From contig NZ_CP083757.1 in assembly GCF_020149935.1 (NCBI RefSeq), positions 496,001 to 560,000 of the forward strand: DNA of 64,000 nt. The letters are read 5' to 3'. Below are positions 30,040-42,608 of this stretch, piece by piece; within the stretch, counting starts at the first letter, position 1, and each line of letters starts with the position of its first letter. Origin of the DNA: Marinilongibacter aquaticus. Its GTDB lineage: Bacteria > Bacteroidota > Bacteroidia > Cytophagales > Spirosomataceae. The notes beneath the pieces were generated by a model. It did not search any database. It was not told the DNA's origin and was given only the letters and a program-made list of their open reading frames with translations. The position numbers were made by a program, and so were the translations under genes.

Positions 30040-30495
30040 ATGTCCCACTATTTCACTTTTGCTCTGGCCGCCTGCACCGTTTCCTGGATCGTGGGCATGT
30101 TGCTCAATAGCCTGCTGATCAAAACCGTCCATTACAAAAAGCTATCCCACTTCAATTTCATTCCCGGTAAAAAGGCGAACAAATTTATGGGCATGCCCGC
30201 GTTCAAATGGATTGTGAAGAACACATTTTTCAAATTCTTCAACCAGAAAATCAAGTTGGAAAACAAGAAAACAGACTTGGCCGAGATACACCATGAAATG
30301 ACGGTAGCCGAGATGGGCCACCTCATCGGTTTTTTGTTTGTGACAGCCGTGGCCCTGTACAAAGGTTTCACAGAAGGCATCCTCTTCGGATTGGTCATCA
30401 TGGCCCTCAACCTGCTGATGAACCTCTACCCTTCTCTGCTGCAACAAGAAAACAAAAGACGCCTCGACAAACTGATTCAGAGACAAAACCAATAA
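30040..30495 (+). CDS. Small integral membrane protein, CrtO-acyltransferase-like
   Basis: The 151-residue protein has hydrophobic segments near residues 6-28 and two more around 95-130, with a conserved-looking central stretch GMPAFKWIVKNTFFKFFNQ. The late motif EMGHLIGF...LNLLMNLYPSLLQQENKRRL resembles the EliHw...NxxxxxxxxxxQRYNRxRL pattern of glycosyl-diaponeurosporenoate acyltransferase (CrtO). That match is from memory and weak, so an acyltransferase role is only a suggestion. An ATG at 30040 is used in place of an overlapping TTG. It follows the TPR lipoprotein gene by 27 bases. Confidence 0.55.
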   Translation: MSHYFTFALAACTVSWIVGMLLNSLLIKTVHYKKLSHFNFIPGKKANKFMGMPAFKWIVKNTFFKFFNQKIKLENKKTDLAEIHHEMTVAEMGHLIGFLFVTAVALYKGFTEGILFGLVIMALNLLMNLYPSLLQQENKRRLDKLIQRQNQ

Positions 30496-30554
30496 ATTGT
30501 AATAGCCTTCACTTATTTATTCATCGAGATCAGAAACTCTCTTTGATAGTGTTT

Positions 30555-31192
30555 TCAAATATTCAAATTTTCGATCGGGCTTTTCACATCTTTCAAATCT
30601 CTGGTAGAAACGTGGGTATAAATTTGAGTGGTAGAAACATGTTTATGCCCGAGGAGTTCCTGAATAAACCTGATATCAGTTCCATTGTCGAGCAAATGAG
30701 TAGCAAAGGAATGTCTCAATGTATGTGGCGTTGCTTTCTTTTTGATGTTAGCAAGCTTACGATGTTTCCTCATCAAATTTTGGACTGACGAGCTTGAATA
30801 CTTCCCCCCATTCTGCCCCTCAAACAAATACTGCTTCGGAGAATACTCTTTAACATAATTCCTAAGCATGTTCAGAACATTTGGAGCAAGCATGGTATAT
30901 CGGTCTTTCTTTCCTTTACCCTGATGGATCCGAATCTGCATCCGGCCTGAATCGATGTCGCTGATCTTTAAAGCCAGAAGTTGCTTCATCATTGAATATC
31001 CATAGTTCAACTCCTCTCTGGCGTATCTATAGAATTCTTCCAATACATCTGGAGTAACTTTCCTTATATCTTTTTCCTGAACAAATGTTAAAAAAACACC
31101 CAAAGCACTAACATAAACTTCCACCGTACGGGGCTATAGTTTTTAAGGATAAGCTTACTCTCGTACTTTGATATTAATTCATTTTTATTCAT
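30555..31192 (-). pseudogene. Integron-integrase-like tyrosine recombinase, copy 1 (disrupted)
   Basis: Compared with copy 2, this gene has lost one base from a G5 run near 31131, shifting the frame after about 20 codons. It has also lost 204 bases in frame between AGCCAGAA repeats, which removes the catalytic Arg I region (YSAGLRLGE). The C-terminal catalytic domain survives and carries HTLRHSFATHLL, LLGHKHVSTTQIYTH and the nucleophilic tyrosine. It ends in DVKSPIENLNI, close to the VRSPLD tail of integron integrases. The gene points away from the cassette array, as intI does. It should not encode an active recombinase. Confidence 0.85.
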
Positions 31193-31283
31193 TTTACTCC
31201 TGTATATTTGAATAATAAAATAAATAAAACTTAAACATGAAAAACTGGGATAAAGTGAACTCAGTTCATTTTACTCTTTTGTT
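31193..31283 (+). other. attI-like leader, unit 1
   Basis: The sequence between the recombinase start and the first cassette is shared with unit 2, apart from small indels, and the identity stops exactly at CTCTTTTGTT. The first cassette therefore begins at the TT of GTT (31281-31283), as at an integron attI. The leader holds the perfect palindrome TGAACTCAGTTCA at 31256-31268, 12 bases before GTT. It could be a recombinase-binding or repressor site. Confidence 0.7.
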
Positions 31284-31314
31284 ATGGGCAATTAAAAAGA
31301 ACTGCATAGAATAA

Positions 31315-33804
31315 ATGAACATAAAGGATAAACTTAAAGACCTTAAAGACCAAAAGAGTTATAGTATTCCTGCCAAAAGGGTAATGGAACATTTGAAACC
31401 TATCTTAAGCAAATCAAACGACTTGCGACAAAGATGGATGTGGGAATTACTTCAAAATGCAAGTGATTTAGGTGATAATGTTAAAGCACGGTTTGAAATA
31501 ACCGCTGACCGACTAAGATTTAGCCACAACGGAAAACCTTTCACGTTGGACGAAGCATATAACTTGATTATGCCTGACTCAACCAAAGATGACGAATCAA
31601 CACATAAAAAAAGCGTAATCGGACAGTTTGGAACAGGATTTATTTCAACCCATATACTTTCTAAGATTATTCAAATTGAAGGAATAATAGAAGATGACGA
31701 ACAACTTTACAGTTTCAGCTTCCACCTTGACAGAAGTGAAAGAAATGATAAGGACTTCTTAATTCAATCAATTAAAGACTCAGAAGCTGAGTATCGGGAA
31801 AATCTTGAAGAACTTGACGAACTTCCAGAAGATGAATTTCAAACGTCATTTACTTATCACATTGACAATACCTACTCTTCCTTAAAAGGACAAGAAATCG
31901 TAAATGACGGAATTGAAAGTTTTATAGAACTCATTCCATACGTTTTAACTTTTAGACCACAATTGGCAGAAATAGAAGTTATTGACCGAAGAACAACAAC
32001 AACTAAATGGACATTTAAACGTGACGAAGTTGAAACCGATATTGAAGACCTTATAATCATTAAAACTATTTGTCAAAAGAACGGTAAACACATTGAAGAC
32101 AGACTAATTGGAAACATTATTGAAGATGAAACCGAAATTGCATTTCCTATTGAAGAAATAGAAGAAAGTAAGTTTCAACTTCTTCCTTTTCCAGAAGACT
32201 GCTCGAAACTTTTTTGTGCTTTTCCTATGATTGGAACGAGTGATTTTAATTTTCCAGTTGTGGTTCATAGTGAAAAATTTGTTCCTAACAGAGAAAGAGA
32301 TGGAATAGAAATTACTGACTTTGATGAAGAAAATAGAGAAAGGCTTGTTGAAGCAAAAATTGCTTTCAAAAGACTTTTAGAAATTATCCAAGAAAATGAT
32401 TGGACAGAAGCCTATAATATTTGTCATTTCACAAATCCCGACATAAATGATACAGAAACAAAAAAATGGTTTGTAAAGGAAATTTTCAATCCAATCAAAG
32501 AAGGCATTTACAACACCAAGCTAATTGAACTTGATAATTCTTTGGAATTGGACGAACATAGAATTGCATTAAGTTCTGCATATGTTCCCTACACTGACCG
32601 AAGAATAAAGGACAAAGAAAAAATCGTAAAAACAATTTATGATTTTGCTACTCAGATTATGGCAGAACAAATTCCTTGTAAAGAACATTTTTTGAGTTGG
32701 TATGAAGTTCTTGACTTTGAAATATTTGAAAGTGAAAAATTGGATATTGAAAAACTTTGTGAAACAATATCACCAAAAGGAAATTTAACAGAGTTTGCTG
32801 AAGCAAACAATTTGACAGAAGATGAAACAGTAAAATACTTCATTGACCTTGTTGAATTCTTGATTGAGCAAGAAGATGAAGAACTTTTAACAAAATACAA
32901 TCTTCTACTAAATCAAAGCAATGTATTTACGAAAATCAAAGGACTTAAACTTGACCGAATAGACCACAAAGGCTTGAAGGATGGCTATGATGAAAAACTG
33001 AAAGACATTTATTATTCTTTATCAAACAACGAATGCAGAGATACCTTACTTCATAAGGAGTTTGAGAGCATTGATGACCTTATAGATGAAGATGACAAAT
33101 ATGACTTTAAAGAATTGGCAAAGGACACGGACGAAGAATTAAGAAACTTTGAAGGAAATTTTCACGATGAAAACTTCTTACTCATTCTTAAAGACCTATT
33201 TAATTGGTATACAACCTGCGGACTTTCCGATGAAACATTAATCAACCTATTTCCTTATTTCTCACTCAACAAATCACAATTATATCTCAATACAAAAACA
33301 CCACAAGAATTAGAATATGCCTTTGATATTGAAATAAGCGGTAAAAGCGAAGTATTAGCAAAACTTGCCAACAGTTCACTATCCGAAAATGAATTAGAAA
33401 TTATTGCTGATAATCCAGAATTGGTTTCAAATTTTATTGAGTGGCTAAATAGCAAACAAGAAGACAATCCTGATGAAGAATTAGGAGAAATTGGAGAAGA
33501 ATTTTTGCACTTTCAACTGTGCCAAATATTTGGAGAAGAAAGAGTATTGTGGGAAAACAAATCTGAATACGACTTTAGGATTTTGAAGCGTGATTTAGAG
33601 AAAACCAAATATTATATTGATGCTAAAACAACGGGAAAAGGAATCGCAAATACAGAAAACGTTCCTTTCTATATGCGAACAGCACAATGGCGTTTTTTGG
33701 ATAGAGAACAAGCTATTGACAAGTATGTAATTGCAAGAGTATATAAAAACGGAAGTGGATTTGATGTGAAATATGTGAAAATCAACTTAACGAAAATGAA
33801 ATAA
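31315..33804 (+). CDS. Hsp90-like ATPase (sacsin type) with C-terminal DUF3883 nuclease-like domain
   Basis: The 829-residue product occupies cassette 1. Its N-terminus is a GHKL/Hsp90-type ATPase as in sacsin: the helix E44-LLQ-N48-AS-D51, then HNGKPF near residue 72, and the glycine loop IGQFGTGF at 102-109. The C-terminal 110 residues match DUF3883 (GEIGEEFLHFQLCQIFGEER) and contain SEYDFR and YYIDAKTT, an arrangement compatible with a PD-(D/E)xK nuclease core. ATPase-DUF3883 proteins are recurrent in defence islands, so an anti-phage role is a reasonable inference. The gene is much more AT-rich than the surrounding chromosome, which fits recent acquisition. Confidence 0.8.
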   Translation: MNIKDKLKDLKDQKSYSIPAKRVMEHLKPILSKSNDLRQRWMWELLQNASDLGDNVKARFEITADRLRFSHNGKPFTLDEAYNLIMPDSTKDDESTHKKSVIGQFGTGFISTHILSKIIQIEGIIEDDEQLYSFSFHLDRSERNDKDFLIQSIKDSEAEYRENLEELDELPEDEFQTSFTYHIDNTYSSLKGQEIVNDGIESFIELIPYVLTFRPQLAEIEVIDRRTTTTKWTFKRDEVETDIEDLIIIKTICQKNGKHIEDRLIGNIIEDETEIAFPIEEIEESKFQLLPFPEDCSKLFCAFPMIGTSDFNFPVVVHSEKFVPNRERDGIEITDFDEENRERLVEAKIAFKRLLEIIQENDWTEAYNICHFTNPDINDTETKKWFVKEIFNPIKEGIYNTKLIELDNSLELDEHRIALSSAYVPYTDRRIKDKEKIVKTIYDFATQIMAEQIPCKEHFLSWYEVLDFEIFESEKLDIEKLCETISPKGNLTEFAEANNLTEDETVKYFIDLVEFLIEQEDEELLTKYNLLLNQSNVFTKIKGLKLDRIDHKGLKDGYDEKLKDIYYSLSNNECRDTLLHKEFESIDDLIDEDDKYDFKELAKDTDEELRNFEGNFHDENFLLILKDLFNWYTTCGLSDETLINLFPYFSLNKSQLYLNTKTPQELEYAFDIEISGKSEVLAKLANSSLSENELEIIADNPELVSNFIEWLNSKQEDNPDEELGEIGEEFLHFQLCQIFGEERVLWENKSEYDFRILKRDLEKTKYYIDAKTTGKGIANTENVPFYMRTAQWRFLDREQAIDKYVIARVYKNGSGFDVKYVKINLTKMK

Positions 33805-33806
33805 AA

Positions 33807-33938
33807 GCCCATAACAATGTATATAAAAAATAGGCGAAATAGTAATAAACCCAAAGTTTTAGCTCTTATCTAACTTTGTATTTAGCTGAAAGTTCTTTTC
33901 TTCGAAATCGCCTACTTTTCATATACTAACCGTTGGGC
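33807..33938 (+). repeat. attC-like site ending cassette 1
   Basis: The left core GCCCATAAC (33807-33815) is exactly complementary to GTTATGGGC at the cassette's own start (31281-31289). Inner arms TAGGCGA (33831-33837) and TCGCCTA (33908-33914) pair, and the right end reads ACTAACCGTTGGGC. The next cassette starts after the G of GTT at 33932. The site begins two bases after the stop codon. Confidence 0.8.
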
Positions 33939-33965
33939 ACATTTAAAAAAGAACACACTGCCAAA

Positions 33966-34454
33966 ATGAAAATTGAACAAATAAAAGAAGGATTTGACAT
34001 TGACGTTGGAGCACCAATGCCGACAATTTTGTCAAATGAACATCATATTTATTTGATTTTCTATGTTAGTAACGTTGACCCTGATTGGGACGGTTCTATG
34101 ATTAATATGCGGACGGAAAATGATGAAGGAATTGTGACCATAAAATTTGACCGATTTGCACAATTCAAATTCGGAAATCCAAATGACGAATCGATTAATG
34201 GACATCCTTTGTACGAATTCGGACTTGAACCATACTCAATACAAAAAGTAACTGAATCGGAATGGATAAAAGAATTGATAAAAATGAATTCTGTCCATCC
34301 ATACCACAAAGACGAACAATTTTCAAAATACAATCATTTCATCTTCTTCTTTCACGACACTTGCTTTGAAATTGTAGCTGAAGGCTACTCAATTGAACAA
34401 AACTCAGAGACGACTATTAAGGGAGAAATTCAGAGAATTGGAAAACTGTTATAA
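33966..34454 (+). CDS. Uncharacterised cassette protein (162 residues)
   Basis: The only gene of cassette 2 encodes a soluble protein with no signal peptide and no catalytic motif I recognise. It starts MKIEQIKEGFDIDVGAPMPT and contains IYLIFYVSNVDPDWDG and FIFFFHDTCFEIVAEGYSI, patterns of a compact beta-rich fold. The ATG at 33966 is chosen over a start 33 bases upstream that would begin inside the recombination site. Its AT-rich codons match the other cassette genes. Immunity or anti-toxin roles are common for proteins of this style, but nothing here proves one. Confidence 0.65.
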   Translation: MKIEQIKEGFDIDVGAPMPTILSNEHHIYLIFYVSNVDPDWDGSMINMRTENDEGIVTIKFDRFAQFKFGNPNDESINGHPLYEFGLEPYSIQKVTESEWIKELIKMNSVHPYHKDEQFSKYNHFIFFFHDTCFEIVAEGYSIEQNSETTIKGEIQRIGKLL

Positions 34455-34460
34455 AAAAAA

Positions 34461-34595
34461 CGTGCTACAACACTGCATAAATTCCATGCCCTCTCAACAC
34501 TGACAAAAATCAATCTCAAGGAAAAATATTAATTTGTGTCAGTTCCGCAATAACCCACCGCACGGGCACGGAACTTATGCAAACCGTTATGCAAA
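34461..34595 (+). repeat. attC-like site ending cassette 2
   Basis: The left core CGTGCTACAAC corresponds to the cassette start GTTGGGCAC with two changed or inserted bases. TGCATAA (34474-34480) pairs with TTATGCA (34575-34581), and ATGCCC pairs with a GGGCAC further in. The right end is AAACCGTTATGC, with the boundary after G34586. Confidence 0.72.
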
Positions 34596-34660
34596 ATTTA
34601 AATTCGCTATAACTCAAATTTATTATATCTTGACAGGTTTTTTGAAAGAATGAATTATTG

Positions 34661-35917
34661 ATGAAAAAGAAAGATTTATTAGATAAAGTAATAAACGAGG
34701 ATGCTAGAAACATTTTGGAAATACTTCCAAATGATTTGACAATAACTACCACAATTACATCACCGCCATATTTTGACATGAAAGACTATGGCTCTGAGAA
34801 TCAGATTGGGTACGGTCAATCATATGAAAATTATCTAGATGATATTCAAAAAGTATTTAATGGAGTCTATAATCGGACGTGTGAAGCCGGAACATTATGG
34901 GTTATTATTGACACATTCAAAAGAAATAATCAAGTAGTGACATTGCCATTTGATTTGTCTGATAAATTGAAACAAATAGGTTGGCTTCTACAGGATATAA
35001 TTATTTGGAAAAAAGATAAAACTGTTCCTTGGTCAACTAACGGGTTTATGCAAAGAAAATTTGAATACATACTTTTCTTTTCAAAAACTCCGAGTTATAA
35101 ATCGAATAAAGATAGTGTTCGTGTTTACGATACAAATCATCTTAAAAGGTGGTGGGTAAAATATCCTGAGAGATATAATCCGCGTGGAAAAGCTTTAGAT
35201 GAAATTTGGGAGTTTCCAATTCCGACTCAAGGATCTTGGGGTAACAAATATATAAAGCATTTTTGCCCCTTGCCTGAAAGTATGGTTGCCACTATGATAC
35301 AGATTAGTTCTGATGAGGGTGATATTGTATTCGATCCTTTTGCAGGAACGGGCACTGTTCTATCTCAATCAGCGTATATGAAAAGAAGGTATATTGGTTT
35401 GGAGTTAAATCCTTCATATGTGAAAATGTTTGAGACGTATCTTGAAAAAACGATTAAAGATAAAAGTCTTGAATATGACTTATATAAACAAAACAATAAC
35501 CAAATCAAATTTGAAAAAAACATACTTGACCTTAGAGCACTAAAATATGCAAGAGTTCTCATTTCGAAAATTGAGAAAGAATCTAATATATCTGACTTTA
35601 AAATATTAGTTACAAAGAGAGGTGACAGTAATATTGAAAATAAATTAATAAAAGTTGAATACAATTTTATTGGCACAATAGACCAAAAAATTGTTGAAAA
35701 TATTTTAAATGAAATTACAATTAAACCGCCACTTTCTAAATTTGGGATTGATCCTGTGTTTAAATTTTCAAACCAACTAGAATTAGAAACAAATAAATTC
35801 TTCGGTTATACAAAAACAAACACTCATTCTTATGAGAAGAATAAAGAGATAGACACTAAACATATCAGAGTTATTAGTGAGATATGCATTGACCTTAACG
35901 AAAACGACTACCTATAA
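34661..35917 (+). CDS. DNA methyltransferase (N4-cytosine or N6-adenine)
   Basis: The 418-residue protein has the catalytic motif TSPPY at residues 33-37 followed, around residue 225, by the SAM-binding FDPFAGTGTV and then YIGLELNP. This order (motif IV before motif I) is the beta class, in which TSPPY is common among m4C enzymes. The extra C-terminal region of about 150 residues is AT-rich and unknown, possibly a target-recognition part. The ATG at 34661 replaces an overlapping TTG. The DGQHR gene starts eight bases after its stop within the same cassette. No separate restriction endonuclease gene is visible. Confidence 0.88.
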   Translation: MKKKDLLDKVINEDARNILEILPNDLTITTTITSPPYFDMKDYGSENQIGYGQSYENYLDDIQKVFNGVYNRTCEAGTLWVIIDTFKRNNQVVTLPFDLSDKLKQIGWLLQDIIIWKKDKTVPWSTNGFMQRKFEYILFFSKTPSYKSNKDSVRVYDTNHLKRWWVKYPERYNPRGKALDEIWEFPIPTQGSWGNKYIKHFCPLPESMVATMIQISSDEGDIVFDPFAGTGTVLSQSAYMKRRYIGLELNPSYVKMFETYLEKTIKDKSLEYDLYKQNNNQIKFEKNILDLRALKYARVLISKIEKESNISDFKILVTKRGDSNIENKLIKVEYNFIGTIDQKIVENILNEITIKPPLSKFGIDPVFKFSNQLELETNKFFGYTKTNTHSYEKNKEIDTKHIRVISEICIDLNENDYL

Positions 35918-35925
35918 ACATCTCT

Positions 35926-37698
35926 ATGGCAAGACTTAGAACTAAAACTAAACCAAAAAGGAAAAAACTTTCTCCGCAAGAGAAAGCACAAAGTAATCAA
36001 AAAAAGGAAATTAGAGCCATTATGAAGAATATGGGGTTTGATAGACTCTCATACATTGATGGCAAGCATTTTCAATATGATGGAAGATCATCCGAAATGG
36101 ATGATATTTACATTAATGAAAATGTTATTCTTATAACAGAGTACACTATTGGTGATCCAGGAACCCATTTATTTAAAAAGAAAGTTTTTTACGATAAAAT
36201 TAATGAAAGCCATAAGGCTTTCATTGACTTCATCCTCCAAGAGGAAAAATTAAAGAGCTTCAAAGATTACTATGAGAATAATATCAAATTAAAGTACTCA
36301 AAGAATGAATTGAGGTTAAAGATTTTGTATTGTTCGAAAAAATCTATTTCAACCGAGCATAAGAATGTTATTGACGGTGTAGTATTCTTTGATTATCATA
36401 TTGTTCAATATTTCAAAAGTCTGACAAAAGCCATAAAGAAATCTGGGAAATATGAATTTATGGAATTTATAAAAATTCCCTTTGAACATTTTGGCAATAA
36501 TATTAAGAATTCATCCTCTCGTTCCCCTCAGACATTTAAAGGGAATATCCTTCCTGAGGAGAAAAGCAAATTTGAAGAGGGTTATAAAATCGTTTCATTT
36601 TACATTGATGCAGAATCACTTTTAAGAAGATCCTATGTTTTAAGACAAAATGGATGGAAAGATATTGAGAATGTTGGTCACTATCAGAGAATGTTAGAGT
36701 CCAGTAAAGTTACCAGTATGAGAAAATATCTTCATGATAGAAATAGAGTTTTCATTAATAATATAATTGCAACAATTTCAACGGACAAAATTAAATTATA
36801 TGACAAAGATGAAAATACTCTAACAATAGACTCTAATGGTCAATTTAAAAACAATAACTCGACTGAAATATCACCTGCAAAAATTGAAATTGATGATTCC
36901 TGTAATATTATAGGATTAATTGATGGTCAACATAGAACTTATGCCTATCACGAAGGAGACGATTCATATGAATATAAAATTTCATCACTTCGTAAGGAGC
37001 AAAATTTATTAGTTACTGGTATACTCTTTCCGCAAAACGAAAGTCAAACGAAAAGATTAAAATTTGAAGCCAATTTATTCTTAGAAATTAACTCAAATCA
37101 AAAGAATGTTCCATCACAAATTCGACAAGAGATTGAACTAATGATTAGTCCTTTTTCTCCAATTGCTATTGGTAAGAAAATTCTTGCAGGTTTAAATAAG
37201 AGTGGACCATTAGGAGATCTCATCGAACAATATTGGTATGAAAAAAGTAAGCTGAAAACGGCTTCAATTGTTAGTTATGGTTTAAGACCATTAGTGAAAA
37301 TTGATGATATTAAATCAAAAGATAGTTTATTTAGTCTTTGGAGTAATTCCAATAAACAAAATCTGAAATTAAAAGACTCCACTGATTATGAACTATTAAA
37401 TGAATATATTGCATTTGCCATTGAGAAGATTAGAGATTTATTAATTGCCTTTAAAGCCCAACTAGCTACAGATCAATGGCAAACCTACAGTCCAAGTCAA
37501 TCCAAAGGATTATTATCAGTTTCTTTTATTAATGGAATTCTTAATGTTATGAGATTATTGATTGAAAACAATAAAGTTAATGACATTAATAGTTATAAAT
37601 CCAAATTAAGCGGAGTTGATAAATTTGATTTTAAGAAATATAAATCAAGTCAATATCGCAAAATGGGACAAGAGATTTATAATAAGCATTTTAAATAA
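35926..37698 (+). CDS. DGQHR domain protein (DndB-like)
   Basis: The 590-residue protein carries the DGQHR motif in CNIIGLIDGQHRTYAYHEGD (about residues 325-345) and a downstream FLEINSNQKNVP segment, both typical of DGQHR proteins. This family includes DndB, which controls DNA phosphorothioation. The N-terminal 90 residues are basic and contain EMDDIYI (57-63) followed by ILITEYT (68-74), spaced like a PD-(D/E)xK core but with threonine where lysine is expected. It may be a modification-sensing or nuclease-like partner of the methyltransferase. Both genes lie in one cassette and share low GC. Confidence 0.82.
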   Translation: MARLRTKTKPKRKKLSPQEKAQSNQKKEIRAIMKNMGFDRLSYIDGKHFQYDGRSSEMDDIYINENVILITEYTIGDPGTHLFKKKVFYDKINESHKAFIDFILQEEKLKSFKDYYENNIKLKYSKNELRLKILYCSKKSISTEHKNVIDGVVFFDYHIVQYFKSLTKAIKKSGKYEFMEFIKIPFEHFGNNIKNSSSRSPQTFKGNILPEEKSKFEEGYKIVSFYIDAESLLRRSYVLRQNGWKDIENVGHYQRMLESSKVTSMRKYLHDRNRVFINNIIATISTDKIKLYDKDENTLTIDSNGQFKNNNSTEISPAKIEIDDSCNIIGLIDGQHRTYAYHEGDDSYEYKISSLRKEQNLLVTGILFPQNESQTKRLKFEANLFLEINSNQKNVPSQIRQEIELMISPFSPIAIGKKILAGLNKSGPLGDLIEQYWYEKSKLKTASIVSYGLRPLVKIDDIKSKDSLFSLWSNSNKQNLKLKDSTDYELLNEYIAFAIEKIRDLLIAFKAQLATDQWQTYSPSQSKGLLSVSFINGILNVMRLLIENNKVNDINSYKSKLSGVDKFDFKKYKSSQYRKMGQEIYNKHFK

Positions 37699-37704
37699 AA
37701 AAAC

Positions 37705-37842
37705 TTTGCATAACATTTTGTATATTCCATAGGGGTTTCAGCGGTTTTCGGGCATTGCAGCTATTATCAAATTAAGGTGTAACGGTCGACAGTGACGCTC
37801 TCCGAAATCCCCTACGTAACATACAATTTTCCGTTATGTGGG
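37705..37842 (+). repeat. attC-like site ending cassette 3
   Basis: The left core TTTGCATAAC (37705-37714) is exactly complementary to GTTATGCAAA at this cassette's start (34586-34595), 3.1 kb away. TAGGGG (37730-37735) pairs with CCCCTA (37809-37814). The boundary follows G37833 in CCGTTATGTGGG. This site has the clearest long-distance match in the array. Confidence 0.82.
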
Positions 37843-37856
37843 ATTTGAATAGACGA

Positions 37857-37888
37857 TTTGATAGATTTACCAATTTTTGGTACATTTG
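37857..37888 (+). promoter_or_regulatory. Promoter of the ParD/ParE cassette
   Basis: TTTG at 37857-37860, a 20-base spacer and TACATTTG at 37881-37888 form a complete Bacteroidota promoter. It lies 15 bases before the antitoxin ATG and begins 23 bases inside the cassette, so the pair is expressed independently of array position. Confidence 0.75.
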
Positions 37889-37903
37889 AAAAAATCGTTT
37901 ATT

Positions 37904-38152
37904 ATGAAGAATACATCTGTTTCCTTAGGTTCATATTTTGATCATTTTATAAAGAAATGTATTTCTGAAGGTCGATATAAAAATGTTAGTGAGGTTATCC
38001 GTGCCGGTTTAAGACTTCTCGAAAATGAAGAAAATAAAACCGAAGCTTTAAGAAAAGCCATTCAAGAAGGAATTGATAGCGGAATTGTTGAAGATTTTGA
38101 CCCAAAATCACATCTTCAAGAATTAAAAAGAAAACATCAAGTAAATGGCTAA
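37904..38152 (+). CDS. ParD-like ribbon-helix-helix antitoxin
   Basis: The 82-residue protein shows the ParD/CC2985 pattern: MKNTSVSLGSYFDHFIKKCI, then YKNVSEVIRAGLRLLENEE. The first half is a ribbon-helix-helix DNA-binding fold and the acidic tail would wrap the toxin. ParD antitoxins repress their own operon together with the toxin. The ATG at 37904 is preferred because 15 bases upstream lies the -7 element, inside a longer frame. Its end overlaps the toxin start by eight bases, consistent with translational coupling. Confidence 0.88.
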   Translation: MKNTSVSLGSYFDHFIKKCISEGRYKNVSEVIRAGLRLLENEENKTEALRKAIQEGIDSGIVEDFDPKSHLQELKRKHQVNG

Positions 38153-38444
38153 ATTCTTTCTAACTGAAAGGGCCATTGATGATCTATCCAAGATTTGGGA
38201 ATATACAATTGAAACATGGTCTGAAAGACAAGCTGATATTTATTACAATTCGTTGATTTCAGATTGTGGCGAAATAGCCAAAAATCCCGAAATAGGAAAG
38301 AAATATACATCAGTACGCTCCGATTTATTGGGTTTACAATCCTCAAAGCACATCATTTTCTATAGAGTTCTCTCTAAAAATCAAATTGAGATCACAAGAA
38401 TCCTCCATCAAAGAATGGATCTTAAGAATCGTATGACTGAATAA
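38145..38444 (+). CDS. ParE-like toxin
   Basis: The 99-residue product has the ParE/RelE fold features: LTERAIDDLSKIWEYTIETW at the N-terminus, GKKYTSVRSDLLGLQSSKHI in the middle, and ITRILHQRMDLKNR at the end. ParE toxins poison DNA gyrase, in contrast to the mRNA-cleaving RelE branch. It is paired with the ParD-like gene, overlapping it by eight bases, and its stop lies directly before the attC-like site. The pair would stabilise the array against loss. Confidence 0.88.
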   Translation: MAKFFLTERAIDDLSKIWEYTIETWSERQADIYYNSLISDCGEIAKNPEIGKKYTSVRSDLLGLQSSKHIIFYRVLSKNQIEITRILHQRMDLKNRMTE

Positions 38445-38445
38445 A

Positions 38446-38567
38446 CCCTACATAACAACGCATAATTCACAGCCTTACTGAACCCTACTTAAAAAAAACA
38501 TAAAAACCAACTGACAAATCACGCCACTAAACCCAGGCCGATGTATTACGCGAGGCCGTTAGTGGCA
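38446..38567 (+). repeat. attC-like site ending cassette 4
   Basis: ACATAAC (38450-38456) is complementary to GTTATGT at the cassette start (37833-37839). The right part contains GATGTATTACGC and ends GGCCGTTAGTGGC, resembling the right arms of the other sites. An additional inverted repeat, GCCACTAAAC against GTTAGTGGC, lies within its right half. The truncated second recombinase begins directly after it. Confidence 0.65.
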
Positions 38568-38568
38568 A

Positions 38569-39174
38569 GCTTGAATACTTCCCCCCATTCTGCCCCTCAA
38601 ACAAATACTGCTTCGGAGAATACTCCTTAACATAATTCCTAAGCATGTTCAGAACATTTGGAGCAAGCATGGTATACCGGTCTTTCTTTCCTTTACCCTG
38701 ATGGATCCGAATCTGCATCCGGCCTGAATCGATGTCGCTGATCTTTAAAGCCAGAATTTCGCCTAGCCTTAACCCTGCCGAATAACAAAGCGTAAAGATC
38801 GCTTTATGTTTCAGATTAGTAAACGAATTTAAAAACCTTTGCACTTCCTTCAGCGACAGCACTTCCGGAACCGTAGAAGGTTTTTTCATTTTTATATTGA
38901 AGTCAAAATCGATGGACTCCTTTAATACTTCCTGATAAAGAAATCTTACAGAAGCCAGAAGTTGCTTCATCATTGAATATCCATAGTTCAACTCCTCTCT
39001 GGCGTATCTATAGAATTCTTCTAATACATCAGGAGTAACTTTCCTTATATCGTTTTCCTGAACAAATGATAAAAAAACACCCAAAGCACTAACATAAACT
39101 TCCACCGTACGGGGGCTATAGTTTTTAAGGATAAGCTTACTCTCGTACTTTGATATTAATTCATTTTTATTCAT
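38569..39174 (-). pseudogene. Integron-integrase-like tyrosine recombinase, copy 2 (3'-truncated)
   Basis: This copy keeps an intact N-terminal SAM-like core-binding domain (LILKNYSPRTVEVYVSALGV) and the first catalytic arginine in LCYSAGLRLGEILALKISDI. After the segment QYLFEGQNGGKYSS its homology to copy 1 ends, and the frame runs into the adjoining attC-like site for 13 more codons. The HxxR box and tyrosine nucleophile are lost, so it should be inactive. Joined to the C-terminus of copy 1 it gives a protein of about 285 residues. The gene is read away from its cassettes, as in integrons. Confidence 0.85.
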
Positions 39175-39254
39175 TTTACTCCTACATATAAAATAAATAA
39201 AACTTAAATATGAAACTGGGATAAAGTGAACTCAGTTCATTTTACTCTTTTGTT
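39175..39254 (+). other. attI-like leader, unit 2
   Basis: This leader matches that of unit 1 through TGAACTCAGTTCA (39227-39239) and CTCTTTTGTT. It diverges immediately after GTT (39252-39254), where the next cassette begins GGCGTG. Small indels relative to unit 1 show that the two copies are not a very recent duplication. Confidence 0.7.
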
Positions 39255-39278
39255 GGCGTGTATTTAAATAAACCAAGC

Positions 39279-39686
39279 ATGAAAAGAGAGAACGAAGTTT
39301 ATTGTCTGAGCAGAGGTTATAGCCCCTTTATTTATAAAAGTAAGACTGGGCTTACATATTGCTTTCCTGTTTCATCGGGGCATGCGGAGATGGAATTTGA
39401 GTTCGATATTTCAGAACAAGATTTAGACGTACTAAAGTCAAGCAACTTTAGATTTAAGGCTCTTTATTACATACTTTTCAATGAAGCTCAGTCAACTTTT
39501 GGAACTGGACATCCTAATCCACGGAGATATACCGCTGAAGAATTTGAGGATGCCAAAAATAAAGTATTGTATAAATCAGAACATGAGTTAAAGTTATATA
39601 TTGAGGAATTTTCGAAAGAAAAGAATATAGCGGAAGATTACTTTTACTTTCAAGCATTCTCAAAAAATGTGTTTCGACAATCATAA
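39279..39686 (+). CDS. Uncharacterised cassette protein (135 residues)
   Basis: The first cassette of unit 2 encodes a soluble protein beginning MKRENEVYCLSRGYSPFIYK and containing SGHAEMEFEFDISEQDLDVL and NPRRYTAEEFEDAKNKVLYK. The fold appears mixed alpha/beta; no catalytic motif, signal peptide or membrane helix is visible. The ATG at 39279 is chosen over a GTG at 39258 that overlaps the recombination core. I recognise no family. The gene fills its 490-base cassette almost completely, leaving no separate promoter, so it probably depends on transcription from the leader. Confidence 0.6.
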   Translation: MKRENEVYCLSRGYSPFIYKSKTGLTYCFPVSSGHAEMEFEFDISEQDLDVLKSSNFRFKALYYILFNEAQSTFGTGHPNPRRYTAEEFEDAKNKVLYKSEHELKLYIEEFSKEKNIAEDYFYFQAFSKNVFRQS

Positions 39687-39692
39687 AAAACG

Positions 39693-39750
39693 ACACGCCA
39701 ACAATGTATAAACGGCATTAAAACGACCGTTTATACTAACCGTTATCTTA
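39693..39750 (+). repeat. attC-like site ending cassette 1 of unit 2
   Basis: The left core ACACGCCAAC (39693-39702) is exactly complementary to GTTGGCGTGT at the cassette start (39252-39261). GTATAAACGG (39706-39715) pairs perfectly with CCGTTTATAC (39727-39736), leaving an 11-base loop. The right end is TAACCGTTATC. This short site of about 58 bases is close to the minimum attC length. Confidence 0.85.
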
Positions 39751-39754
39751 TATT

Positions 39755-40609
39755 TTGAAAATACAAATAGGGAACATATCATTCAATGTAGATCAATCTC
39801 ATTATGCTGAATTCTGGAACCACCTAAATTCTGGGAAATGGGAATCAGATACATTCGATATAATTGATGAATTCGTTTCCCATGATAGCTGTGTTATTGA
39901 TATGGGCTGCTGGATAGGGCCATTAAGCCTGTATATGGCTAAAAAAGGAGCAATAGTATATTCGATAGACCCCGATCCTGAGGCGTATAACTGGTTTATA
40001 AGAAACCTAAACCATAATACTGAGTTAAAAAGTAGAATTCATCCAAGAAACATTGCCATATCCAAGCACTCTGGTGAACAGATATTGTATGCCAGAGAGG
40101 GATATGGAAATTCTTCAACAAGCCTATTAAACAGAACTAGAGACCGGATCAGTAAAATTAGAGCCCAGACGTATAGTTTAAATGATTTTTTGGACATGAA
40201 CTCAATTAGCAAAATCGACTTTCTGAAAATTGATATCGAGGGAGGGGAATTTGCGATTTTAGATCAACTGGTAGAATTAAAAAGGAAAGAGACATATAGA
40301 ACCCTTTTCTTATCCATACACTATGATCATTTAAATGAAGCCGTCTACCAGAAAAAAATAAGATATAGATTACTTAGTCTATTTCTAATGAAACTTGAAA
40401 GAATTGCGAATATTCACTTTTTTAAAAAGGAACTTCAGTTCTATTTGAATGAACTTTGTAAGTTAACGGATGAGTTTGATTACATCTATTCACAGAACGG
40501 GAAACGATTACTTCCGGCAAAAGTAACAGCCAGTTACCTCTTGAATCGAAAAGTGGATTTACTTCTTTCGGATACAGAATGGAATAAAAATAAGATAACA
40601 AAAACCTAA
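39755..40609 (+). CDS. FkbM family SAM-dependent methyltransferase
   Basis: The 284-residue protein has the SAM motif CVIDMGCWIGPLSLYMAKKG near residue 50, VYSIDPDPEAYNWF (motif II) and the FkbM hallmark IDFLKIDIEGGEFAILD. FkbM enzymes methylate hydroxyl groups of sugars, polyketides or lipids; the substrate here is unknown. The likely start is a TTG 13 bases after the cassette boundary, since no ATG precedes the SAM motif. That makes the gene nearly leaderless. Its last codons overlap the attC-like site, so site and coding sequence have co-evolved. Confidence 0.82.
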   Translation: MKIQIGNISFNVDQSHYAEFWNHLNSGKWESDTFDIIDEFVSHDSCVIDMGCWIGPLSLYMAKKGAIVYSIDPDPEAYNWFIRNLNHNTELKSRIHPRNIAISKHSGEQILYAREGYGNSSTSLLNRTRDRISKIRAQTYSLNDFLDMNSISKIDFLKIDIEGGEFAILDQLVELKRKETYRTLFLSIHYDHLNEAVYQKKIRYRLLSLFLMKLERIANIHFFKKELQFYLNELCKLTDEFDYIYSQNGKRLLPAKVTASYLLNRKVDLLLSDTEWNKNKITKT

Positions 40610-40648
40610 GCCGCTTTGAACCACAGTTTAGCCGGAACGTTGTAGTGC
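40590..40648 (+). repeat. attC-like site ending cassette 2 of unit 2
   Basis: The left core ATAAGATAAC (40590-40599) is exactly complementary to GTTATCTTAT at the cassette start (39742-39751), and lies inside the last codons of the FkbM gene. The right end is GGAACGTTGTAGTGC, with the boundary after G40639. Inner arms are not obvious by eye. Confidence 0.72.
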
Positions 40649-40715
40649 ATTAAAGATCACAAATCTGAACCTTCTACAAAAAAACTGATTCTAAATTTTT
40701 TCAAAAAACAATTCG

Positions 40716-40739
40716 TAAATTTGTATCTAAATGGATACA
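40716..40739 (+). promoter_or_regulatory. Promoter and operator of the HigB/HigA-type cassette
   Basis: TAAATTTG (40716-40723) matches TAnnTTTG. TGTATC and GATACA (40722-40739) form an inverted repeat with a six-base spacer that overlaps the -7 element, ideally placed for autorepression by the toxin-antitoxin complex. Confidence 0.65.
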
Positions 40740-40745
40740 GCTTAA

Positions 40746-41045
40746 ATGTACTTTATTGAGAAAACAACAGAGTTTGACAAGTGGCTTAAAAAGCTAAAAG
40801 ACATTAGAGCAAAAGCCAAAATAATTTTCAGAATCCAAAAAATTGAATCTGACGAACATTTTGGTGATTGTAAACCTGTTGGAGACGGTATTCGTGAACT
40901 GAGAATAAATTACGCTAAAGGATACCGAGTTTACTTTAAAGAAAAAGGTGATAAAATCATCATTTTACTTGTTGGTGGAGATAAATCGACTCAACAAAAA
41001 GACATTGAAAAAGCGAAAGAAATCTGGGAAAAATTAAACAAATAA
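40746..41045 (+). CDS. RelE/HigB-type toxin (COG3657-like killer protein)
   Basis: The 99-residue protein matches the Gp49/COG3657 addiction-module toxins: FDKWLKKLKDIRAKAKIIFR at the N-terminus, DGIRELRINYAKGYRVYFKE in the core, and ILLVGGDKSTQQKDIEKAKE at the end. These relatives of RelE cleave mRNA at ribosomes. As is typical of HigBA-type modules, the toxin gene comes first and the antitoxin follows after five bases. The promoter/operator sits just upstream inside the cassette. Confidence 0.88.
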   Translation: MYFIEKTTEFDKWLKKLKDIRAKAKIIFRIQKIESDEHFGDCKPVGDGIRELRINYAKGYRVYFKEKGDKIIILLVGGDKSTQQKDIEKAKEIWEKLNK

Positions 41046-41050
41046 GAAAT

Positions 41051-41332
41051 ATGAAAACTTCAAAATTTGACATAGCAGATTATTTGGACAGCAAAGAAAT
41101 GATTGCAGAATATTTGAATACTGCTCTCGAAAATGGAAATAATCAAGACGTTATTAACGCCATTGGACACATTGCGAAAGCCATTGGAATGACTAAAATC
41201 TCTGAAGAAACAGGATTAAGCAGACCTAGTTTATACAAAGCATTGTCAGACGGAGCAAAACCTCAATTTGCCACAATTATGAAAGTTTTGAAAGCAATCG
41301 GTGGACAAATTCATATAAATCCGACAGCATAA
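41051..41332 (+). CDS. HigA-like helix-turn-helix antitoxin (COG3636 type)
   Basis: The 93-residue protein has the COG3636 pattern: FDIADYLDSKEMIAEYLNTA, then HIAKAIGMTKISEETGLSRP with a helix-turn-helix, followed by SLYKALSDGAKPQFATIMKV. It would neutralise the preceding toxin and bind the operator at 40722-40739. Five bases separate the genes. A degraded attC-like left arm follows eight bases after its stop. Confidence 0.88.
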   Translation: MKTSKFDIADYLDSKEMIAEYLNTALENGNNQDVINAIGHIAKAIGMTKISEETGLSRPSLYKALSDGAKPQFATIMKVLKAIGGQIHINPTA

Positions 41333-41339
41333 AAAAGCC

Positions 41340-41633
41340 AGCACATAACAATGGCTATAATTAATTGCTTGTTCTCGCCTACTTTTGAAAATCCTCGGAA
41401 TTTTCAGCTTGGTGTGTACTTGCAAAGTTTAGTGTTAAACCATGCAGCTAATCATAGCCGAGACCATTCAAAAGTATCGCTTCATGCTCCTCACTCGAGC
41501 CATCTGGGACTGATCCGAACAAGGGCTTTGAGCCATTGAAACCAATATCAAGCGAACATGAAATGACGACCCAACAAGCAATTGGGGCATTTGTACCTGC
41601 TGTGTCTCGTCCTGTTTCAAATTCCGACAAGAA
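41340..41633 (+). repeat. Decayed attC-like site and featureless spacer
   Basis: AGCACATAACAATGGCTAT starts like the left arms of the intact sites and partly matches the cassette start GTTGTAGTGC. ATAGCC near 41457 could pair with its GGCTAT, but no ACCGTT right core remains. The rest holds no convincing gene. A short open piece at about 41560-41637 (MTTQQAIGAF...) may be a fragment of a lost gene. Confidence 0.45.
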
Positions 41634-42608
41634 TTAGCCTTCCCAGTGTAAGATTATTTTCCCTATATGCTTGCTTTCTTCCATGCACTGTTGTGCCTGT
41701 ACCGCATTTTTATACGAAAACACTTTGTAAACAATAGGTTTAAATTTCCCGGCTTCAATTAAAGGCCAAACGTGAGTTTTTATTTCAGTCGCCAATCGCT
41801 TTTTATAGGTATAGTCTCTGCCCCGCAAGGTGCTTCCGCTTACGGTCAATCGCTTGATCATCAACTGCCACACATCCATTGTAACATGTTGCCCACCTTC
41901 TGCATTAATGTGCACCAACCGTCCGTCCTCTTTTAGGATGTTTAGGTTTTTCTGAAAATAAGGCCCGGCAATCATATCCAATATCACATCTACACCCTCA
42001 TCTTTCAAAATGGTCTCAAAATCTTGGGTTTTGTAGTCAATACACAAATCTGCTCCAAGCCCGTAGCAGAAGGCCGCTTTCTCTTGGTTGCCCACGGTGA
42101 CAATCACCCTGGCATCCAAGGCATTGGCTATTTGAATGGCCGTAACCCCAATACCACTGCTGCCGCCATGTACGAGCAAGCTTTCTTTCGGTTTTAGTTT
42201 TCCTCTTTCAAAAATGTTCGACCATACCGTAAAAACTGTTTCGGGCAAACTGGCAGCTTCTACAAAATTCAATCCGGCCGGTATGGGTAAACACTGGCCT
42301 TCTTTTACCGCAGCATATTGGGCATAGCCACCACCGGGCAGCAGAGCACAAACCCTATCCCCTTTTTTCCATTGTGTTACATTTGGGCCACAAGCTACGA
42401 CAACACCGGCTACCTCTAGGCCCGGAATTTGGTTGGTTGTATTGTTTGGAGCCGCATATTTACCTTGACGTTGCAATACATCGCTTCTATTGATTCCTGA
42501 AGCTTTTACTTCAATTAAAACTTCATCATTCGTCGCTGAAACGGTGGGCACTTCGGATAGTTGCAATACTTCTGCACTTCCAAACTCGCTAATGGTAATG
42601 GCTTTCAT
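41634..42608 (-). CDS. NAD(P)H:quinone oxidoreductase (zinc-independent MDR family)
   Basis: The 324-residue enzyme belongs to the quinone-oxidoreductase branch of medium-chain dehydrogenases. It starts MKAITISEFGSAEVLQLSEV and has IPGLEVAGVVVACGP, the NADPH-binding SLLVHGGSSGIGVTAIQIAN and GLEAGKFKPI-type C-terminal elements. Cysteine ligands of zinc alcohol dehydrogenases are absent, as expected for the PIG3/QOR branch. It reduces quinones or reactive carbonyls. It lies 12 bases after the unknown gene on the same strand and divergent from a LysR gene that likely controls both. Confidence 0.88.
   Translation of the reverse strand: MKAITISEFGSAEVLQLSEVPTVSATNDEVLIEVKASGINRSDVLQRQGKYAAPNNTTNQIPGLEVAGVVVACGPNVTQWKKGDRVCALLPGGGYAQYAAVKEGQCLPIPAGLNFVEAASLPETVFTVWSNIFERGKLKPKESLLVHGGSSGIGVTAIQIANALDARVIVTVGNQEKAAFCYGLGADLCIDYKTQDFETILKDEGVDVILDMIAGPYFQKNLNILKEDGRLVHINAEGGQHVTMDVWQLMIKRLTVSGSTLRGRDYTYKKRLATEIKTHVWPLIEAGKFKPIVYKVFSYKNAVQAQQCMEESKHIGKIILHWEG

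Follow-up and report, generated by a model that had tools for sequence, protein, structure and literature searches.

This report concerns two adjacent genes in a window of 64,000 nucleotides from the genome of Marinilongibacter aquaticus (contig NZ_CP083757.1, positions 496,001 to 560,000 of the forward strand), to which all coordinates below refer. One gene encodes a DNA methyltransferase and the other a protein of 590 residues with a DGQHR motif, and both are carried by a single integron cassette. Such a pair in one cassette at 34587-37833 had been proposed in a first-pass annotation of this DNA; the genes are as described there, and those limits are the limits of the cassette to the base. 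The features of the pair are as follows.

34587..37833, plus strand: integron gene cassette with the methyltransferase and DGQHR genes (3247 bp, 29.9% G+C; G/TT boundaries, CCGTT at both ends)
34661..35917, plus strand: beta-class N6_N4 DNA methyltransferase, 418 amino acids from the ATG at 34661 (419 from the TTG at 34658)
35926..37698, plus strand: DGQHR protein of 590 amino acids; N-terminal nuclease-like and central ParB/Srx-like domains and a helical C-terminus in the AlphaFold2 model
35968..36483, plus strand: predicted PD-(D/E)XK-like domain, residues about 15-186 (AlphaFold2 models and conserved residues)
36568..37236, plus strand: predicted ParB/Srx-like domain, residues about 215-437, carrying QR (254-255) and FxxxN (385-389)
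36922..36936, plus strand: DGQHR motif, residues 333-337, kept in 60/60 homologues
37703..37839, plus strand: attC-like recombination site of the cassette (R'' box at 37703-37714, R' core at 37833)

The element has the marks of an integron cassette, namely G/TT boundaries, complementary R' and R'' ends and a neighbouring integron integrase. Its ends, GTTATGCAAAAT and the site at 37703, are complementary at 11 of 12 positions, which none of 500 shuffles equalled, and the 10-base end pairing is complete (10/10). The bottom strand of the attC-like site folds with a z of -1.60, and 12 of 200 shuffles folded as well.

The methyltransferase matches PF01555 (E=3.6e-41), and its motif IV, TSPPY, precedes its motif I, DPFAGTG, an order that we take to be that of the beta class, in agreement with the earlier assignment. 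Its nearest solved chain is 2zie (E=7e-19), and from its sequence the mark that it leaves is predicted to be m4C or m6A. In PADLOC 2.0 (2023), it is matched only by models of type II or orphan methyltransferases. The second protein passes the NCBIfam model TIGR03187 DGQHR (68.2 bits; cut-off, 58.85). It has no Pfam match at cut-off, no Pfam endonuclease match at E<=1, no solved relative by single-sequence search at E<=10 and no REase_II (type II endonuclease) model among its PADLOC matches at E<=0.1; its only match in PADLOC 2.0 is a weak one to DpdB (E=5.2e-06). Its homologues were aligned in 60 rows, which comprise the window and 59 of the 63 loci from the scan described below (L012, which is interrupted, and L059, L060 and L065, which are partial, were omitted), and these reach down to 27% identity. 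The DGQHR, QR and FxxxN motifs are invariant in all 60. The same three make up the motif list of the family in excerpts of PMC4619093, which also relate the DGQHR motif to the DGQQR motif.

The association of the two genes extends well beyond this genome. A profile of five homologues was run against viral contigs and against 84,980 species, each represented by a single genome; the scan is built on two short peptide patterns, and its count of loci is consequently a lower bound. It yielded 63 loci, 58 from genome contigs and five from viral contigs. A methyltransferase gene lies at most 400 bp from the DGQHR gene in 59 of them (in one, L037, it is frameshifted) and within 2.6 kb in two more, for 61/63: at 2.6 kb in L023 and at 776 bp in L024, where a different methyltransferase is divergently oriented. 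The other two, L059 and L065, break off at a contig end, and pairing is thus 61/61 among the uncut loci. With the same methyltransferase profile, matches were found in only two of the 471 other open reading frames (ORFs) of at least 150 amino acids in these loci. Integron arrays shuffle genes, and the pair sits in an array of this type, a setting in which two unrelated genes might be joined as chance neighbours by cassette shuffling. Against these counts, chance pairing was rejected, and it deserves practically no credence. The gene pair and its conservation are established.

Once the window and the plasmid and phage loci are included, there are 67 paired loci. The methyltransferase gene is upstream on the same strand in 61 of these, convergent and downstream in three, downstream on the same strand in two and divergent in one. 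The convergent pairs are L045 and L007/L070, one phage seen twice (L070 agrees in sizes and scores with L007, which is Akkermansia phage Chantilly). By sequence check, G583 is the same record as L023 (and L128) and G450 the same as L066; on equal gene sizes, G347 was taken as L013 and G664 as L014. Because of these duplicates, the 67 paired loci hold two duplicate pairs. A third core gene was also considered and rejected, as no gene recurs beside the pair on inspection by eye. Genes lie between its members in two loci: a BglII-type gene in L008, and a GHKL-type ATPase gene together with a 300-amino-acid gene in L023.

Carriers are found in Bacteroidota, Pseudomonadota, Planctomycetota, Nitrospirota, Bacillota and Thermodesulfobacteriota and in candidate-phylum and archaeal bins, as well as in Akkermansia phage Chantilly and on plasmids. 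Full-length DGQHR members are present in five of 395 genomes of the class, including the genome studied here (the other four are already among the scan loci, by sequence or gene sizes), and in three of 101 genomes of the family, the other two also with an adjacent methyltransferase gene. A distant search of E. coli genomes with the cassette gave no match. Of 119 flanking genes at the 63 loci, 116 were scanned (the methyltransferase ORFs of L024 and L037 and a 1238-amino-acid ORF of L038 were omitted). Six of the 116 are phage integrases, and no other Pfam family exceeds four among the 25 listed of 139 families; PtuA, type IIG and type II enzymes are among the defence models matched by individual flanking genes (25 of 112 families listed). 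These flanks, together with carriage by plasmids and phages, fit a mobile module. They also bear on a reading in which the pair is a selfish or phage-borne module kept for competition between hosts or for lysogeny and not for host defence, for which the five viral loci, the phage and plasmid carriers and the integrases speak. That reading does not exclude restriction as such, but 58 of the 63 loci are on genome contigs (which may include prophages) and a Tiamat-like gene stands in the same array of the window; we regard it as very unlikely.

The partner of the DGQHR protein is not always the same methyltransferase. Motif IV of the 67 paired enzymes reads TSPPY in 47, SSPPY in 13, TDPPY in four and ADPPF in one and was not found in two; the latter, L034 and L038, share 56-60% identity with short-type methyltransferases and were classed by hand. 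On a quick DGQHR tree of 62 rows, in which 15 of 59 inner branches are poorly supported and L007 and L052 form long branches, the partner class changed 13 times by parsimony, with a minimum of five and a shuffled mean of 28.7. The well-supported branches alone force fewer changes (5, 3, 2, 2 and 3 when each of the five classes is counted separately). The pair distances are nevertheless correlated, with a Spearman rho of 0.317 against 0.145 for the largest of 200 permutations. Thus, a methyltransferase of some kind is retained beside the DGQHR protein, but which one varies. The sequences suggest that the pair is largely inherited together and that the methyltransferase is occasionally exchanged, as expected if its partner needs a protecting methyltransferase.

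The first-pass annotation had suspected a nuclease in the N-terminus of the DGQHR protein. When modelled by AlphaFold2 with the 60 homologues, the whole protein reaches a pLDDT of 87.9 and a pTM of 0.80, and residues 1-200 alone reach 93.7 and 0.87. In structural comparison by VIA, the model of the N-terminal domain resembles AF1548 (Z 9.3, rmsd 2.8, 112 residues), FokI (Z 8.9, rmsd 3.3, 140 residues), the BspD6I nickase, 2ewf (Z 8.6, rmsd 3.1, 136 residues), the BspD6I small subunit (Z 8.5, rmsd 3.1, 129 residues), BstEII (Z 7.8, rmsd 3.6, 127 residues) and the CRISPR nucleases Cdn1 and Can2 (Z 7.0-7.8), all of which presumably share the PD-(D/E)XK fold. A best Z of 7 to 8 is common without kinship, and for this reason weight is placed on the dominance of nucleases in the top 20 rows. 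Most of these rows are nucleases; the others are 1y88 and 1xmx (of unknown function or with titles that give only a name), the XisH and FdxN factors (2okf and 2inb) and Upx. Further down the list, RNA polymerase subunit E and a rhomboid N-domain also appear. The domain is accordingly predicted, from the model, to have a PD-(D/E)XK core fold, and the suspected resemblance to restriction nucleases, with FokI and BspD6I among the best at Z 8.5-9.3, is borne out at the level of the model.

The central domain resembles ParB-N/Noc proteins in VIA (5k5d, Z 6.6; 7ol9, Z 6.5; 7nfu, Z 6.3), and Foldseek against viral models returned GmrSD N-terminal, occlusion and ParB-like proteins at E-values of 5e-4 to 1e-3. 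The TIGR03187 match supports the same ParB/Srx assignment from the sequence side. The C-terminal third (residues 438-590) is barely covered in the VIA table and was assigned no fold.

The conserved residues of the N-terminal domain are arranged as a putative active site. D59, N66, E72, T74 and H81 are invariant in 60/60 homologues, position 57 is E or D in all of them, and Lys85 is kept in 59/60. In the model, D59 lies just before the strand 60-64, E72 and T74 are on the strand 67-74, and H81 and K85 are in the helix 78-94. The plasmid homologues L004 and L005, which are outside the 60-row alignment, also keep D59, E72, T74, H81 and K85. Of the two acidic residues that had been singled out from the sequence, E72 therefore stands as invariant, while D60 does not (D in only 40/60), the invariant acid being its neighbour D59. 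The proposed replacement of the motif lysine holds throughout, with Thr74 in 60/60 and Lys85 of the next helix as the conserved lysine. Recruitment of active-site residues from elsewhere is described for BspD6I and EcoRII in excerpts of PMC4081073. The longer relatives discussed below are, in one alignment, nearer to the canonical form at the same place (D...VECR in L119 and L006, D...ITCK in L118). As an observation, the invariance of these residues is established, as are the folds as predictions.

In the favoured reading, which we hold to be reasonably probable, the cassette encodes a compact and complete restriction-modification system; its restriction enzyme would join a nuclease to a ParB/Srx nucleotide switch in one chain and cut unmarked DNA. 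The methyltransferase would mark a short DNA sequence on the host chromosome, and the DGQHR protein would be its restriction partner. The central ParB/Srx domain would bind a nucleotide (ATP or GTP most likely, from its relatives) and engage DNA, and this engagement would license the N-terminal PD-(D/E)XK-like domain to cut DNA without the mark. In the active site, D59 and E72 would hold the metal, and Lys85 of the following helix would stand in for the usual lysine, here Thr74. That unmarked DNA is the target, that a nucleotide acts as the switch, that Lys85 serves in catalysis and that phages are kept out are our inferences. In favour of the reading as a whole count the pairing, the changes of methyltransferase class, the correlated pair distances, the nuclease-like model with its conserved residues and several observations on relatives that are detailed below, namely the known restriction genes in L008 and L120, the small ORF in L024, the Dam-type methyltransferases beside the longer proteins of L118 and L119, the lack of beta-class or Dam-type matches near eight short DGQHR proteins and the stop codon in L012. 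For the switch, the argument is by analogy with relatives: a DndB-like protein binds ATP and GTP (excerpts of PMC12704722), and in SspE the DGQQR motif is needed for GTP hydrolysis and R133 is needed for cleavage too (excerpts of PMC13251355). The first-pass annotation had proposed a two-gene restriction-modification or DNA-sensing module and had named two results that would speak against it, a fold unlike that of nucleases and co-occurrence at background level. Neither was found, and the proposal gains support.

SspE also lends itself to a different reading, in which the DGQHR domain is a modification sensor that reads the methyl mark, hydrolyses a nucleotide and unleashes the nuclease on invading DNA, so that the mark activates and does not shield. 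In excerpts of PMC13251355, SspE couples a ParB-like GTPase with a DGQQR motif, stimulated by phosphorothioate DNA, to a nuclease, and the R133A change abolishes both activities; the relation between DGQHR and DGQQR (PMC4619093, in part) and the invariance of DGQHR and QR are in keeping with a sensor of this kind. However, with several classes of partner methyltransferase, a single mark-reading pocket would need to read different marks, and L008 and L120 each have, besides the pair, a restriction enzyme from a known family. We consider such a sensor unlikely.

Several observations weigh against the restriction reading. The canonical lysine of the (D/E)xK motif is absent, Thr74 taking its place in every homologue. 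A Z of 8.5-9.3 for the N-terminal domain is barely above the range that VIA states for common arrangements, and the Z of 6.3-6.6 for ParB-N/Noc falls within it; Foldseek E-values for the N-terminal domain are weak, with only one below 0.001 (8.9e-4, an R2 retrotransposon protein). Longer relatives in L006 and L142 (a 3.65-kb locus) are without a methyltransferase match. In L008, a gene of the BglII family (PF09195, 2.5e-18) lies beside a DGQHR protein with an intact-looking site, and thus the two need not share a function. In L037, a frameshifted methyltransferase gene accompanies an intact DGQHR gene, which should be lethal in a classical restriction-modification system, unless the frameshift is a sequencing error. 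Finally, excerpts of PMC10853773 describe DndB, to which the central domain is related, as a repressor.

The last three points and the substitution by Thr74 would all suit a regulator pair, in which the DGQHR protein, much like DndB, represses or limits the methyltransferase in a nucleotide-dependent manner (the same excerpts describe the repression by DndB as ATP-dependent), its nuclease-like fold is a dead scaffold and the methyltransferase acts alone. A dead scaffold, however, should drift, whereas D59, E72 and T74 are fixed in sequences down to 27% identity and K85 differs in only one of them. The varying gene order, convergent in L007/L070 and L045, is also awkward for simple autoregulation. 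On balance, the regulator pair appears quite improbable.

The favoured restriction-modification reading can be placed among known systems. Like type II restriction-modification, the module has two adjacent genes, a beta-class methyltransferase, exchange of methyltransferase classes and a predicted nuclease fold that, among restriction enzymes, is closest in the model to FokI and BspD6I. Unlike type II systems, its putative nuclease shares a chain with a ParB/Srx DGQHR domain, has Thr in place of the motif lysine and matches no PADLOC type II endonuclease model (E<=0.1). With GmrSD and SspE, which have DUF262 and a DGQQR motif and carry out nucleotide-dependent restriction, it shares, by prediction, a ParB/Srx-type nucleotide domain joined to a nuclease, and DGQHR resembles DGQQR (PMC4619093 and PMC13251355, in part). 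Unlike their C-terminal HNH domain, however, the nuclease-like domain is N-terminal and PD-(D/E)XK-like here, and a methyltransferase gene is near in every uncut locus. No DUF262 or HNH domain was matched by Pfam in the DGQHR protein at E<=1, and its motif is DGQHR, not DGQQR.

With DndB and DpdB, of the phosphorothioate and deazaguanine systems, the protein shares the DGQHR domain (DGQHR_dnd_1, E=4.9e-08; DpdB, E=6e-05). It differs from them in its extra nuclease-like domain and in scores far below the equivalog cut-offs (32.4 of 450 bits for TIGR04172 and 22.1 of 300 bits). The earlier remark that no dnd genes accompany the pair holds, for dndC and dndD, across the genome, which is 95.75% complete and has no match to either at E<=0.001. 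On these grounds and on the TIGR04172 score, membership in a Dnd system was rejected. Coupling of ParB-like and N6_N4 methyltransferase domains is also seen in phage fusions of a ParB CTPase with an N6N4 methyltransferase; unlike those single proteins, the module described here has two genes and an added nuclease-like domain (PMC12704722, in part).

Taken together, the pair most likely works like a restriction-modification system with a restriction partner of unrecognised architecture, and its sequences and models suggest that the two-gene unit is probably an overlooked kind of such systems. This agrees with the earlier view that it is not among the named types: beyond the lack of a type II endonuclease match, the pair is not modelled as a system in PADLOC 2.0, and no description of it was found by title or abstract in the open-licence literature searched, which is weak evidence of absence. 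Annotation currently sees half of the system, as the methyltransferase is called type II or orphan and its partner a DGQHR protein of unassigned role. If the reading is correct, a widespread restriction system has gone unnoticed so far. Some methyltransferases now classed as orphans would then have a partner, the DGQHR (DndB-like) domain would act in restriction as a nucleotide switch, and integron cassettes would count a probable restriction system among their cargo. A bolder proposal, which we put forward tentatively and hold to be possible rather than probable, is a nucleotide-gated class of restriction-modification. In this class, a sliding or clamp-like ParB/Srx switch would load on DNA and, with nucleotide turnover, would license the fused PD-(D/E)XK-like nuclease with its relocated lysine, and the two-gene unit would be spread across bacteria and archaea with interchangeable methyltransferases. 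Such a class would explain the partner of many methyltransferases that are now annotated as orphans.

The methyltransferase family also occurs outside the pair. Relatives at E<=1e-20 are present in 28 of 395 genomes of the phylum, and among these 28 (with flanks of about 1.5 kb), a DGQHR gene stands beside the relative only in the genome studied here and in G347. The close relatives in L073-L075 (39-44% identity) have no DGQHR gene within their short loci, and thus membership in this methyltransferase family does not in general imply a DGQHR partner. Both neighbours in L073 are without a Pfam match. In L074 and L075, the methyltransferase gene stands with a third gene and has a PF20553 ('putative O-methyltransferase') gene next to it, in what may be a further defence-like row.

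Some loci depart from the two-gene form. In L120, a DpnII gene (PF04556, 2.8e-96) joins the pair, and the site pattern of the DGQHR protein is lost there (in one alignment); in both L120 and L132, a DpnII-type restriction gene stands in one row with genes for a methyltransferase and for a DGQHR protein whose nuclease site is degenerate. In L012, one stop codon interrupts the DGQHR gene and the methyltransferase is intact, as expected if the restriction half were lost. L024, from a gammaproteobacterium, is the nearest neighbour of the window in the DGQHR tree, in a clade that is otherwise of Bacteroidota. Between its divergent methyltransferase and DGQHR genes is an ORF of 83 amino acids that looks like a helix-turn-helix protein (by appearance) and is, in our estimation, reminiscent of restriction control proteins. 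A four-gene variant spans 3402-8707 of L023, with a methyltransferase, a GHKL-type ATPase (549 amino acids), a 300-amino-acid gene without a Pfam match and a DGQHR protein. PLSDB lists the DGQHR gene of L004 (7884-9710, NZ_CP017943.1) under lmrP, a resistance gene; this label is apparently a false prediction.

DGQHR proteins also vary in length. Four are longer (760-787 amino acids), and those of L118 and L119 lie beside Dam-type methyltransferases; a viral scan with L119 gave no match. Short DGQHR proteins (349-453 amino acids) lack the nuclease-like domain, as judged by their length and the part of the profile matched. None of seven is near a beta-class or Dam-type methyltransferase, the only classes sought, in stretches of 6.1-10.5 kb (two of which end soon after the gene), and the same holds for the one in L143, a 3.5-kb locus in which only these classes were sought. 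The short proteins of L133, L137 and L138 (412-428 amino acids) have repeated neighbours of about 694-699, 520-528 and 161-199 amino acids. In L121, which is the same place as L133, the next gene but one matches AAA_10 and HerA_C weakly, below cut-off, possibly as part of another DGQHR system.

In the window, the pair's cassette belongs to a low-G+C block at 31-41 kb, which has 29-34% G+C in nine of ten 1-kb steps and 37.6% in one, against 44% for bases 1-30500. This block behaves as an integron array, with the following further features.

30555..31124, minus strand: broken integron-integrase copy 1, at the head of the array (TIGR02249, partial)
31282..33932, plus strand: cassette two before the pair's (ends pair at 9/10; 2/500 shuffles)
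31315-33804, plus strand: Tiamat (TmtA)-like gene, 829 amino acids (PADLOC TmtA, E=1.5e-125, residues 1-584)
33933..34586, plus strand: cassette directly before the pair's (G/TT boundaries; ends pair at only 5/10; 3' site fold z -5.33)
33963-34454, plus strand: gene of 163 amino acids (173 from an upstream TTG), no Pfam family above cut-off
37834..38558, plus strand: following cassette (ends pair at 9/10; 18/500 shuffles)
37904-38152 and 38145-38444, plus strand: ParD/ParE toxin-antitoxin pair (PF03693, E=2.2e-25; PF05016, E=4.6e-16)
38527..39174, minus strand: broken integron-integrase copy 2, C-terminal part missing (TIGR02249, partial, profile 2-180 of 315)

All units of the array start right after G/TT, and CC precedes in five of eight places. 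The pairing between the G plus the first nine bases of a unit and the site near its own end reaches 9-10 of 10 in five of six units, which one to 18 of 500 shuffles reached; a seventh cassette, from 40640 and with its end not placed, gave no end pairing. The two sites before the pair's cassette fold as single strands far better than shuffles (z -4.26 and -5.33), and both the pair's own 3' site (z -1.60) and the next one (z -1.16) are less clear than these. A search of 30300-42000 of the window against Rfam gave no match. Studies of 2025 reportedly found phage defence genes in integron cassettes. Like such integron-borne defence genes, the pair's cassette has G/TT ends and shares an array with a Tiamat-like cassette; unlike them, it holds two genes that form an undescribed module, and both neighbouring integrase copies are broken. 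The Tiamat-like protein is a sacsin-type ATPase whose C-terminus matches NOV_C weakly, below cut-off.

The two integrase fragments (tyrosine recombinase) both match TIGR02249 in part and below cut-off. Copy 1 is matched by copy 2 in pieces only (97, 93 and 67% identity), and other matches to the integron integrase in the genome are at most 40% identical. A stretch upstream of both broken copies is common to them (31242-31302 and 39213-39273), and the two diverge right after G/TT, as two attI sites with different first cassettes would. Behind copy 2 lies a second short array (39253-41333), with genes for an FkbM-type methyltransferase and a Gp49/HI1420-type toxin-antitoxin pair besides an unassigned gene of 142 amino acids.

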